Below, piece after piece: positions 5,119 through 35,278 of a stretch of 64,000 nt of DNA. Source of the DNA: Dehalococcoidia bacterium. GTDB taxonomy: Bacteria; Chloroflexota; Dehalococcoidia; Tepidiformales; Tepidiformaceae. Location: positions 1 to 64,000 of the forward strand of contig JADZEI010000027.1 of the NCBI GenBank assembly GCA_020850615.1. The letters run 5' to 3'. The position numbers and the translations under genes were made by a program. Within the stretch, counting starts at the first letter, position 1. Each line of letters begins with the position of its first letter. The notes below the pieces were generated by a model. It was not told the DNA's origin, searched no databases, and saw only the letters and a program-made list of their open reading frames with translations.

Positions 5119-5317
5119 ACCGAGGCCCAGCGCGGGGGACTTGCTTTCGAAGGGTGGGAAGGGCAGATGGCCGCCAGGTAGCGATGGAAAGGCCGCATCT
5201 CAGCGATGCGGTCTTCCACACGTGCGGCCAGGAGTTTCCGGAAGACAGCGTGAGCTTGCCCAGCCCGGCCTGGATCCACACAGCGACAACTGGTCATGAT
5301 TGAGTGGGGAGGTACAC

Positions 5318-5950
5318 GTGAACGAAACCAACGGGCGCCGCCCGCTGTCCACGGTCCGCGTCAACGCACGCGGTGAGGACTATCGAGTCGTCCGCGTCAG
5401 CGGAAACCTGTTCGTCTGTTCGAGGCAAAACGGCAGCTGCTGCTGTGGTTGGGGGGAGAAAGGGCGCATGCCCTTCGGGAACGAGCTGTGGTCGGACGAG
5501 TGGGAACGCCGACGGATTCGTAACCGGCTGCACCTCACGTTCACGGGTTGCCTCGGACCGTGTATCGCCGGCAACAACGCCATGCTGCAGCTGCACGGTC
5601 GGTCAATCTGGTTCAAGGACCTCAACTCGGCGGACCTCATCCCGAAGGTCTTTGACTACGCCGAGGAGATGCTCACTGCTGGTAAGGTGCTCCCTCCGCC
5701 GGATGACCTCCGGGGGCATGTCTACGACCGCTACCTGGTGCCGCCGGAAGACGAGTGGCTGCCAATGAGCGCCCCCGATGCGGACGAAGGCAATGGCCTC
5801 GATCGGCTCGACCCCGTGTGCCTGATGGATGTCGACCCTGCAACTGCGAAGCACACGGTTGAATACGGTGGCCGCGTCATTGCCTTCTGCGCACCCTCCT
5901 GCAAGAAGCAGTTCCTTGCCGACCCGGCGGAATTCGCACTGACTCAGTGA
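5318..5950 (+). CDS. Thioredoxin-like [2Fe-2S] ferredoxin fused to a YHS domain
   Basis: From GTG 5318, five bases after GGGGAGG, this encodes 210 residues; the upstream in-frame TTG (5300) is a weaker start. The N-terminal ~125 residues resemble thioredoxin-like 2Fe-2S ferredoxins, with cysteines in NLFVCSRQNGSCCCGWG and TGCLGPCIAGN. A linker leads to a C-terminal YHS domain (DPVCLMDV, then FCAPSCKKQF), a metal-binding module common in copper ATPases and chaperones. The fusion beside copB suggests redox-coupled metal handling, which is inference. Confidence 0.7.
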   Translation: MNETNGRRPLSTVRVNARGEDYRVVRVSGNLFVCSRQNGSCCCGWGEKGRMPFGNELWSDEWERRRIRNRLHLTFTGCLGPCIAGNNAMLQLHGRSIWFKDLNSADLIPKVFDYAEEMLTAGKVLPPPDDLRGHVYDRYLVPPEDEWLPMSAPDADEGNGLDRLDPVCLMDVDPATAKHTVEYGGRVIAFCAPSCKKQFLADPAEFALTQ

Positions 5951-32640: not shown

Positions 32641-32724
32641 ATGGGCCGATCGGTGCGCGAAAGTCCCCACATGGGCGCGTAATGTCGATGTCAGAGAGAG
32701 CGGAGAAACGGAGAGACGCGAACG

Positions 32725-32775
32725 ATGTACCAACCACTTCACGTCCTCTACCGGGTGTGGGAAGTCGACAGATAA
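32725..32775 (+). CDS. Tandem microprotein 1 (MYQPLHVLYRVWEVDR)
   Basis: A 16-codon ORF, ATG to TAA. GGAGAG lies about 9-11 bases upstream. It shares LHV-L/I-YRVWEVD with copies 2 and 3 and differs in the second and third residue pair (QP instead of RR) and the last residue (R instead of S). I know no named family. A short amphipathic, Trp-containing peptide could be a type I toxin, a leader peptide, a signal or a modified-peptide precursor; nothing in the sequence decides. Confidence 0.55.
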   Translation: MYQPLHVLYRVWEVDR

Positions 32776-32831
32776 GGGGGCGGAAATAGCGTTCCGAACT
32801 GGATGAGCGGAGAAACGGAGAGACGCGAACA

Positions 32832-32882
32832 ATGTACCGGCGGCTTCACGTCATCTACCGGGTCTGGGAAGTCGACAGCTAA
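32832..32882 (+). CDS. Tandem microprotein 2 (MYRRLHVIYRVWEVDS)
   Basis: A 16-codon ORF, ATG to TAA, with the same leader as copy 1. Against copy 3 it differs at eight codons: seven changes are synonymous (Arg, Arg, Val, Tyr, Val, Glu and Val codons) and one is Tyr2 to Phe. That pattern is what selection on the peptide produces and is hard to explain if the DNA were non-coding. Confidence 0.65.
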   Translation: MYRRLHVIYRVWEVDS

Positions 32883-32935
32883 GGGCCGTCCCACCGATAC
32901 GAACCAGGGAGCGGAGAAACGGAGAAGTGCGAACC

Positions 32936-32986
32936 ATGTTCAGGCGACTTCACGTGATCTATCGGGTGTGGGAGGTTGACAGCTAA
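32936..32986 (+). CDS. Tandem microprotein 3 (MFRRLHVIYRVWEVDS)
   Basis: A 16-codon ORF, ATG to TAA, with a slightly altered leader (GGAGAAGTGCGAACC before ATG). It encodes nearly the same peptide as copy 2 with different codons. It is the last unit; a terminator follows ~190 bases downstream, so the array probably forms its own short transcript. Confidence 0.65.
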   Translation: MFRRLHVIYRVWEVDS

Positions 32987-33176
32987 GTGGCAGCCATGGA
33001 CAGGACGGACCGCCTGGCCCGCTAACGCGGTCCACCTCACCGGGAATGAGCCGCCGGCCTGACCGGCGCCCCGGACACGCTGAAGATGCACGGACGCTGC
33101 GCGAAAGCCGGGCACTCGCCGCCTGACACGGCGAGCCGAACACCGTTCAACCGACCGTACGCAACACACCACAACA

Positions 33177-33206
33177 GGGCCCCGCCGAAATCGGGGCCCC
33201 TCTTTC
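33177..33206 (+). terminator. Rho-independent terminator after the microprotein array
   Basis: GGGCCCCG / CGGGGCCC with a 7-base loop (CCGAAAT) is followed by CTCTTTCG. It separates the microprotein transcript from the 33332 gene. Between the last peptide and this hairpin (32987-33176) I see only a weak 26-codon frame at 33046-33126. Confidence 0.7.
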
Positions 33207-33331: not shown

Positions 33332-35278
33332 ATGCCCACGATACGACCGAAATCCCACGCCTCTGTCCGGCTCCTGCACCCGCGAGCCGGCGGGACGCTC
33401 GACGCCTCGCGGGCGGCGTTTCGCTGGGCCCCGGTGAAGGCGCGCCGCGGCGGCGGACTCCGCTACCGGCTCAGCGTCTACGCCCTGCGGCCGGGGCAGC
33501 CGCTGGCGAAGGCCGCCTCGGGACGCCCGCTCTACGCTGCCGACGGCCTCAAGGAGACGCAGCACCGCGTGCCAGCTGTGGCGACGGGGTTCAAGCCCGG
33601 CCGCGGGTACTGCTGGAACGTCGAGGCGGTCGACCAGGCAGGGGCGGTGGTATCGAGCGCGATGCGGGGCTTCCGGCTGGAGCGGAAGCGGACGGCCCCG
33701 GCGCCCGTGGGCATGGCCCGGCTCGACATGGGCGCGCTCCGCGACCCGGCGAACCACCTGCCCCATGCGCCCTTTGTCTGGGGCCAGCCGGTCCGCGTCG
33801 GGTTCCGAAGCCGGCTGCCGGAGGGCGGGGAGGGCGGCAGCGGTGGCAGCACCGAGCCGGGCTGGAAGTGGACGCTCTGGGGACAGGAAGCGGCCCGCAT
33901 CTACCTCATCGAGCCGTTCTGGACGCAGGCGCGGCTCCAGTGGGACTACAGCACGGTGCCCGGCTGCGAAGAGGTGGTGCTCCAGATCGCCGGCCCCGAC
34001 GGGTTCGCCGAGCCCAACTCGATGGACGCAGCCTCTGACCCCGGCGTCGCCGTCTGGTACAGCGGGCCGGTCACGCTGCCCGAGTTCTGCCTGGGGGTCA
34101 CGCTGTCGCTGCGCGGGGACCCGGCGGTCTACGGGATCGCGCACAGCCTGGACCTGCAGTACACCGGCGAGGAGCACGAGTTCTGGGACAACCTCTCTGT
34201 GCGGCTGGTGCCAATGGACGGCGCCGGGAACCAGGTGGACGTGGCTTCCGACCACGTCAGCGTGGGCTGCGTCGACCTGCCGCTCATCACCGTCGAGTCG
34301 TGCGACGTGGAGTGGACCTGGGGCGAGTCGCCGCGGCGGCGCATCGAAATCGAGCTCCGGCTCGAGCGGGCGTTCCCGGCCAACGGCGACACGGAGCGGT
34401 CGACGCTGGCGTTCGCCGCCTGGACACCGCACACGGGCACGTCGATCGCGCGGGCAGTGCTCGAAAACGAACAGCTCCTCAACGACGACGGCATCCCGAC
34501 GGGTGAGGCGGGGACGTGGGAGGGCAAGCCCGCGTACTTCGCGCTCCTCCCGGAGTGGGTCGACGGGGCGCGACTGGTGTACACGCTCGAACAACGGGCC
34601 ACGGCCGCGGAGGCGCCCGTTGGGATGCTCGGCGGGCTGCTGCACTTCACGGACCTGTTCCTCCGGGTGCACTGCATCCCCGGGCTGACGCCGCAGACGT
34701 ACACCTGCGGGCGGATGCTGAAGGACGACGGCGTGCCGGAGATCCCATGCGCTGCCGAGTACGAAGGGCGCTACTACGACGCGGTGCTCGCGGCCCGGGA
34801 CCTGTTCGCCGGCCATAGCGAGTCCGGGCTCGAACCGATCTTCGAGCTGTTCACGCGGCCGCTCCGTGGCACGAAGCACACGGTACGGACGGTCGACGGC
34901 GAGGAAACGGAGGACCGCGAGGAGGACGTGACGGTTGAGTTCCGGTACACGGAGGACCTGCTCGACGCGCAAGACTTCGAGCGCTACCTCATGCGGGCGA
35001 GCGCGGCGAACAGCCCGTGCACCATCACGCTGGTCGAGACGATTGGCAGCCGCGAGACGGAGTACAGCTTCCGGATGCTCGGCTTCCACGCGACCATGAC
35101 GAAGGTGGGCGAGCGGTCGGCCTGGTACCACGGCCCCGAGGGCACGGACCCGGCGCGGCTGATCTTCGACCCGCCTCGGCTGCGGACGACGTTCTATCGC
35201 GAACGCGGGCGCTGGGATGAGGCCGAGGGGCGGTGGATCGACGACGTGGAGCGGGTTGAGTACGACGTCGGGCACTGA
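33332..35278 (+). CDS. Large protein of unknown function with N-terminal Fn3-like domain
   Basis: ATG 33332 has GGAGG seven bases upstream (648 residues); an in-frame GTG at 33275 is weaker. Residues 1-115 look like a fibronectin-III-type beta-sandwich (SVRLLHPRAGGTLDASRAAF, RYRLSVYAL, GYCWNVEAVD). The rest is beta-rich with many Trp and Tyr and a Gly/Ser linker near 165-180, but I recognise no domain. No signal peptide or membrane helix is seen. It lies directly after the microprotein terminator and converges with the Lon-like gene. Confidence 0.6.
   Translation: MPTIRPKSHASVRLLHPRAGGTLDASRAAFRWAPVKARRGGGLRYRLSVYALRPGQPLAKAASGRPLYAADGLKETQHRVPAVATGFKPGRGYCWNVEAVDQAGAVVSSAMRGFRLERKRTAPAPVGMARLDMGALRDPANHLPHAPFVWGQPVRVGFRSRLPEGGEGGSGGSTEPGWKWTLWGQEAARIYLIEPFWTQARLQWDYSTVPGCEEVVLQIAGPDGFAEPNSMDAASDPGVAVWYSGPVTLPEFCLGVTLSLRGDPAVYGIAHSLDLQYTGEEHEFWDNLSVRLVPMDGAGNQVDVASDHVSVGCVDLPLITVESCDVEWTWGESPRRRIEIELRLERAFPANGDTERSTLAFAAWTPHTGTSIARAVLENEQLLNDDGIPTGEAGTWEGKPAYFALLPEWVDGARLVYTLEQRATAAEAPVGMLGGLLHFTDLFLRVHCIPGLTPQTYTCGRMLKDDGVPEIPCAAEYEGRYYDAVLAARDLFAGHSESGLEPIFELFTRPLRGTKHTVRTVDGEETEDREEDVTVEFRYTEDLLDAQDFERYLMRASAANSPCTITLVETIGSRETEYSFRMLGFHATMTKVGERSAWYHGPEGTDPARLIFDPPRLRTTFYRERGRWDEAEGRWIDDVERVEYDVGH

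Follow-up and report, generated by a model that had tools for sequence, protein, structure and literature searches.

A previously undescribed family of stand-alone small RNAs with conserved micro-ORFs in Dehalococcoidia and its predicted role in ribosome pausing

The stretch of 64,000 nucleotides (nt) analyzed here, hereafter the window, comes from a bacterium of the class Dehalococcoidia (phylum Chloroflexota) and the family Tepidiformaceae (assembly GCA_020850615.1, contig JADZEI010000027.1) and contains three tandem micro-open reading frames (micro-ORFs) in a gap between conventional genes. These ORFs constitute a divergent three-ORF variant of a previously undescribed family of stand-alone small RNAs, whose members encode peptides of 14-20 amino acids. 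Judging from sequence comparison, the transcript of such a gene would carry one or several micro-ORFs, with a hairpin and a branched domain 3' of them in canonical units, and is predicted to belong to the ribosome-pausing, dual-function type, a tentative assignment to which we give slightly less than an even chance. What looked like an isolated oddity is thereby a gene family absent from every library searched and present in dozens of genomes of a major, mostly uncultured bacterial group.

Micropeptide Family and Its Distribution

The peptides share the consensus M..[KR]LHx[LV][YF]GVWxV[DQ], for which no match is expected in shuffles of the window. A profile built from the first relatives found matched 29 of the 38 genomes of Tepidiformaceae, the family of Tepidiforma, at E <= 1 (best values about 1e-9 per genome), and the strong matches were short ORFs of approximately 16-22 codons preceded by a Shine-Dalgarno (SD) sequence. 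The source genome itself contains a second, single-copy locus (C53:37641-37688, MRSKLHAFYGVFIVQSEGSR), which was missed in the original prediction, made from the window alone, as was the RNA structure downstream of the ORFs. Class-wide search revealed peptide units in many other families, where the usual peptide has 14 residues, M[RK]LHx[LIMR][YF]GVWQVD[SKRW], and phylum-wide search added units in one family of another class (L128, L129). Both ends of the peptide are variable, with about 1-8 residues before Leu-His and 0-17 after the Asp/Gln. No plasmid copy of the element was found. Two low-scoring loci of the first search, L005 and L006, were unconvincing as units and were rejected.

A pattern scan (SD sequence, ATG/start codon and motif) of 84,980 named genomes yielded 48 stretches. 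All but one either carry one of the labels Chloroflexota, Chloroflexi, Dehalococcoidia, Dehalococcoidales, and Tepidiforma or proved to be misnamed members; this taxonomic concentration serves as a control against chance matches. Among the oddly labelled matches, the HR29 bin is identical to genome G014 and the Anaerolinea sp. PR.017 contigs to G011, both from Tepidiformaceae. A contig labelled Deltaproteobacteria (JABMRW010000038.1, locus L116) also carries a complete unit. Conversely, genus g13 of Tepidiformaceae lacks both peptide and RNA in 9 of 9 genomes (G012, G020, G025, G028, G031, G033, G035, G036, and G061), a clean absence that is suitable for comparison. One of the genomes with the family is that of Tepidiforma flava YIM 72310, a strain that has been cultured and sequenced, so the family is open to experimental testing.

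Selection on the Coding Sequence

Copies 2 and 3 of the window ORFs had been reported to differ at eight codons, seven synonymously and one by a Tyr/Phe replacement, and our recount agrees: 7.0 synonymous changes per 11.4 sites against 1.0 nonsynonymous change per 33.6 sites (Fisher test with rounded counts, p = 5e-5). The contrast is milder for copy 1, with nonsynonymous-to-synonymous ratios (pN/pS) of 0.47 and 0.33. The 66 distinct core sequences taken from relatives encode 48 different peptides; their pN/pS is 0.41 for the coding frame, as against 1.43 and 1.68 for the two alternative frames. The core shows no variation at His, Val7, and Val10, and all four Val codons are used for Val7. The peptide is under purifying selection. 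The original prediction had set a search of relatives as the test of its claim that these are microprotein genes under peptide selection, skipped by standard gene callers; the peptide frame is kept in relatives, with in-frame synonymous bias across copies, and the claim is strongly supported.

Selection also acts on the nucleotides. The core Leu is mostly encoded by CTT, and the Gly codon is always GGA or GGG, in 33 of 33 loci with high GC content, versus 31% among the Gly codons of long ORFs.

RNA Structure and Its Link to the ORF

In relatives each unit is separate and spans approximately 250-450 nt. It comprises an SD sequence, the micro-ORF, a hairpin (H1) immediately 3' of the final conserved codon, a branched domain, and a terminator, the last being found in the aligned units. 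Most units begin with TTGACA and a -10-like box. RNAalifold, run without any prior structure on 31 units from outside Tepidiformaceae, proposed 42 pairs that form P0 (the 5' end paired with ORF codons 2-4, enclosing the SD sequence), H1, P1 (a 13-pair long-range helix around further hairpins), the further hairpins, and the terminator. Compensatory changes were found in 29 of the 42 pairs, and 92.5% of the alignment cells are paired; none of 500 shuffles reached this level, and slid controls paired 34-51%. P0 explains the preference for CTT, since substitutions in the 5' end are matched by compensating ones in codons 2-4.

Covariance model R1, built from the units of other families from H1 onward with no ORF included, matched 30 of the 294 genomes of the class. 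Upstream of the full-length matches there is an SD sequence, an ATG or GTG, and a 13-codon frame at a constant distance from H1. The ORFs at R1 matches include the divergent peptides MKLQAVLGVWQVDS, MKLYLVYGVLEVD, and MQLSKFIGVWLFPS, and in some of them His is replaced by Gln or Tyr. The exceptions are L147, which is degenerate, L161, the weakest match, which is due to chance, and one match at a contig end. Since an ORF lies upstream of nearly every match of this ORF-free model, the ORF and the RNA structure are inherited together. A second model, R2, built on Tepidiformaceae units, matched the C53 unit of the source genome and most single-ORF units of that family, in which H1, a P3-like hairpin, and the terminator are supported and the longer-range helix is less clear. 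No tRNA or transfer-messenger RNA was found at the loci.

The constraint on codons 2-4 and on the GGA codon could be expected if the RNA were structured and entirely non-coding, with an ORF present only by accident. However, the pN/pS values with their frame controls, the 7:1 synonymous excess in the window, and the start codon with an SD sequence at a fixed distance in independently found RNA units make up a coding signature that contradicts this explanation, and we regard it as extremely unlikely.

Genomic Context

Among 45 loci, the next downstream gene is on the same strand in 25 cases and on the opposite strand in 20. There is neither a conserved neighbor nor a shared downstream family beyond local synteny. 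This random orientation to neighbors indicates a stand-alone unit rather than the leader of the next gene. A leader peptide was among the functions suggested originally; the anatomy of an ORF plus a hairpin fits the suggestion, whereas the genomic setting does not. The same holds for the more general possibility of a cis-acting attenuator or an arrest-peptide upstream ORF (uORF) controlling a downstream gene: the spacing of ORF and hairpin is like that of arrest and attenuation leaders, but the orientation counts, the lack of a shared downstream family, and the strong terminator that closes the unit speak against it. A role as leader of the downstream gene was rejected on the orientation counts, the cis-acting explanation is contradicted for most loci, and we consider it quite unlikely overall. 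What favors it locally is a divergent copy in L131 (1501-1640; G258:C15), MTVKLNMLYGVWQVDCTYPAF, located about 140 nt upstream of a same-strand gene; in this copy His is replaced by Asn, H1 is present, and the branched domain is apparently absent, so that a cis-acting offshoot is possible.

Further candidate functions are not supported. Neither a precursor of a ribosomally synthesized and post-translationally modified peptide (RiPP) nor a signalling peptide, both suggested originally, is accompanied by conserved neighbor genes; for a RiPP these would be genes for modification or export, but the neighbors in the window are an M28-peptidase gene and a gene for a 648-aa protein. As for a frameshift product, the +1 and +2 frames are no longer than in shuffles when measured as codons to the stop, a test that rests mainly on 65 of 82 loci, the other 17 being one base out of register.

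In five loci of Tepidiformaceae (L049, L050, L052, L055, and L056) the unit is located approximately 290 nt upstream of a gene for a copper-protein-like secreted protein with the motif VEVSE.GFNP..C..N, which reflects local synteny only.

Position of H1 and Predicted Ribosome Pausing

In 56 units H1 starts 6 nt (standard deviation 0.98) after the Asp/Gln codon and 12 nt downstream of the first base of the preceding Val codon, whereas its distance to the stop codon varies between -47 and +4 and the stop codon lies within or beyond H1 in 29 of the 56. H1 is thus placed by the last conserved codon and not by the stop codon. The second ORF of two-ORF units ends in WFGPI or a similar sequence, with H1 6 nt after the Pro codon; the endings WLFPS and WFGPI/WHRPM place Pro at the Asp/Gln position, 6-7 nt from H1 (L138 and L154; the second ORF of L044, L048, L054, L058, and L110). 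Hairpins spaced like H1 are known to pause ribosomes. Moreover, counted from the sequence, an internal GGAG (codons 8-9 of the 14-codon form) ends 8 nt upstream of the Val codon that would occupy the peptidyl (P) site, and 8 nt is a normal SD spacing.

This spacing suggests, without proving it, that the peptide and the hairpin together pause the ribosome, and the geometry is compatible with stalling by a nascent peptide. In the mechanism we propose, the micro-ORF would be translated until the P site holds the second conserved Val codon and the aminoacyl (A) site the Asp/Gln (or Pro) codon, at which point H1 would meet the mouth of the mRNA channel. At the same moment the SD-like GGAG would be at the SD-to-P-site distance, and the nascent ..LHxxYGVWxV would be in the tunnel; H1, GGAG, and the nascent peptide may jointly pause the ribosome. 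The pause might then choose between alternative folds, with the 5' end either paired with codons 2-4 or open, and with H1 and the branched domain either formed or not, and this choice could set the stability or activity of the RNA. With downstream genes divided almost evenly between the two strands and a terminator at the end of the unit, such a pause would affect the RNA itself or the peptide output, and not a neighbor. A broader proposal is that these are class-wide regulatory RNAs sensing the state of the ribosome, in which the nascent peptide of a 14-codon ORF, together with a hairpin in an exact position, pauses the ribosome and so switches the fold and fate of a trans-acting RNA that has no downstream gene; we regard it as possible but rather doubtful. 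If the pausing reading is true, nascent-peptide sensing would extend beyond cis-acting leaders and be built into a free-standing small RNA.

Peptide Conservation Without the Hairpin

Several observations weigh against the ribosome-pausing explanation. First, in the window ORFs the peptide retains its WEVD form, but CGG (Arg) replaces GGA (Gly) and H1 is absent at 6 nt; two-ORF relatives, too, have no H1 behind their first ORF. Conservation of the peptide is therefore not everywhere tied to the hairpin. Second, P0, well supported in alignment A4, is individually weak in the additional units and was not seen in Tepidiformaceae. Third, R1 misses the single-ORF units of Tepidiformaceae, meaning that the RNA domain either evolves faster than the peptide or is merely analogous between families. 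Finally, the 3' domain of the window unit is scored by neither R1 nor R2, and we therefore do not claim it as the same RNA domain.

These points bear on a different explanation, in which a free micropeptide, acting in trans, would be the product and the hairpins would merely protect and tune a small mRNA. The main argument for it is that the peptide survives where the hairpin geometry does not: the peptide is conserved further than the RNA domain and is kept without H1, and the ORF is duplicated two- and threefold in some units, which raises the peptide dose. On the other hand, both peptide ends vary and the conserved part stops exactly where the ribosome would meet H1; the choice of the Gly codon is constrained at the nucleotide level; and the branched domain covaries, which message stability alone would not call for. 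Given this balance, a free-micropeptide product seems plausible, though we are inclined to doubt it. Should this explanation hold, the peptide would rank with the smallest conserved proteins of bacteria.

Comparison with Known Systems

Rfam gave no match at the gathering threshold or at E <= 1, the exceptions being one tRNA at the edge of a contig and two matches below threshold, and members of 20-30 aa had no profile match in Pfam, NCBIfam, or PHROG. Neither the motif strings nor the element were found among open-licence PubMed Central papers.

SgrS/SgrT and VcdRP resemble the family described here in being stand-alone small RNAs with their own promoter and terminator, a short ORF, and a conserved RNA structure; likewise, the promoter, the terminator, and the random orientation seen in relatives point to an independent transcription unit. 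They differ in having a known base-pairing function and longer proteins (VcdP has 29 aa; PMC8672173), as compared to 14-20 aa here, and in the new family the structure encloses the ORF and has a hairpin at a ribosome-pausing distance. Library searches found no sequence relation to SgrS/SgrT or VcdRP. SecM, TnaC, MifM, and uORF groups (PMC10987492) also have a short ORF with conserved C-terminal residues and a hairpin located at the ribosome's leading edge or close to it, as well as a freely varying N-terminal part and tail. However, such leaders and uORF groups control a downstream gene in cis (PMC10987492), and no downstream gene is associated with the units considered here. The family appears to work like a dual-function small RNA with a core resembling that of arrest leaders; since the cis-controlled gene typical of leaders is lacking and the regulation of targets typical of dual-function small RNAs would be hypothetical here, we assign it to neither class. 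It differs from dnaX-type frameshift/pause cassettes in having no extended alternative frame.

The tandem arrangement of tiny intergenic ORFs is reminiscent of the Ibs/Sib and Ldr repeats, in which a type I toxin is paired with an antisense RNA antitoxin. Pairing between the 5' end and the beginning of the ORF, which is predicted here, is also a feature of translationally inert toxin mRNAs. Yet the peptides have 14-16 residues with an invariant His, Asp/Gln, and basic residues, and lack a transmembrane stretch; direct reading of the 48 distinct cores revealed no hydrophobic membrane peptide, and a consensus scan of the window found no promoter on the opposite strand. The type I toxin originally listed among the candidate functions does not fit such a polar peptide and is very unlikely.

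The Three-ORF Unit of the Window

Features of the window unit are listed in Table 1. The three 16-codon ORFs, which are on the plus strand, their peptides, and their position had been predicted exactly to the base, and the reported spacings of 107 and 104 were reproduced as start-to-start distances. The ORFs lie in register inside an 81-nt direct repeat that, as noted originally, includes the same purine-rich leader before each of them. The terminator predicted at 33177 coincides with the start of a terminator-like hairpin, and the gap of approximately 850 bases does lack a conventional gene; it extends from the M28-peptidase gene (minus strand, start at about 32480) to the plus-strand gene 33332-35278, which encodes the 648-aa protein without a Pfam match.

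Table 1. Features of the three-ORF unit in the window.
Feature	Position	Strand	Evidence
Possible -10 element TAATGT	32680-32685	+	Weak: similar to the TAATGTG seen in single-ORF relatives; a suitably spaced TTGACA is lacking; promoter scan negative
Purine-rich leader with SD-like GGAG, 5' of ORF 1, part of the repeated unit	32698-32724	+	Direct repeat D1
Micro-ORF 1, MYQPLHVLYRVWEVDR	32725-32775	+	81-nt direct repeat; profile match, E 1.3e-9 per genome; codon comparison
Copy of the purine-rich leader, 5' of ORF 2	32805-32831	+	Direct repeat
Micro-ORF 2, MYRRLHVIYRVWEVDS	32832-32882	+	Direct repeat; profile match; codon comparison
Copy of the purine-rich leader, 5' of ORF 3	32909-32935	+	Direct repeat
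Micro-ORF 3, MFRRLHVIYRVWEVDS	32936-32986	+	Direct repeat; profile match; codon comparison
H1-like hairpin GGACCGC/GCGGTCC, 3' of the last ORF, displaced	33007-33033	+	Predicted fold; far beyond the Asp codon compared with the usual 6 nt
P2-like nested hairpin CCGGG..CCCGG	33040-33074	+	Predicted fold; analogy with relatives only; unscored by R1 and R2
P3-like hairpin CTCGCCG/CGGCGAG	33115-33135	+	Predicted fold; analogy only
Intrinsic-terminator-like hairpin closing the unit	33177-33199	+	Position matches the terminator of relatives

The window unit, with its peptides and terminator kept and H1 displaced, is therefore a derived form whose most conserved part is the peptide. No promoter in this unit passed a sigma-70 consensus scan, and of promoter and terminator only the latter is clear. 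An ATG-led 10-codon ORF without an SD sequence, MDRTDRLAR (32996-33025, plus strand), ends with its stop codon inside the H1-like hairpin loop, an arrangement also seen in relatives, and is possibly a decayed fourth ORF.

In two loci, L061 (about 5310-5900) and L060 (about 5300-5600) of genomes G006 and G014, more promoter- and SD-led short ORFs with perfect AAAGGAGGTG sites are located directly 3' of the unit. They are partly Arg-rich, are accompanied by repeated GGAGCGGCCCGCTCCGGGTAGGAGCATCGC-like hairpins, and possibly represent a second, unrelated family of small-ORF RNAs.
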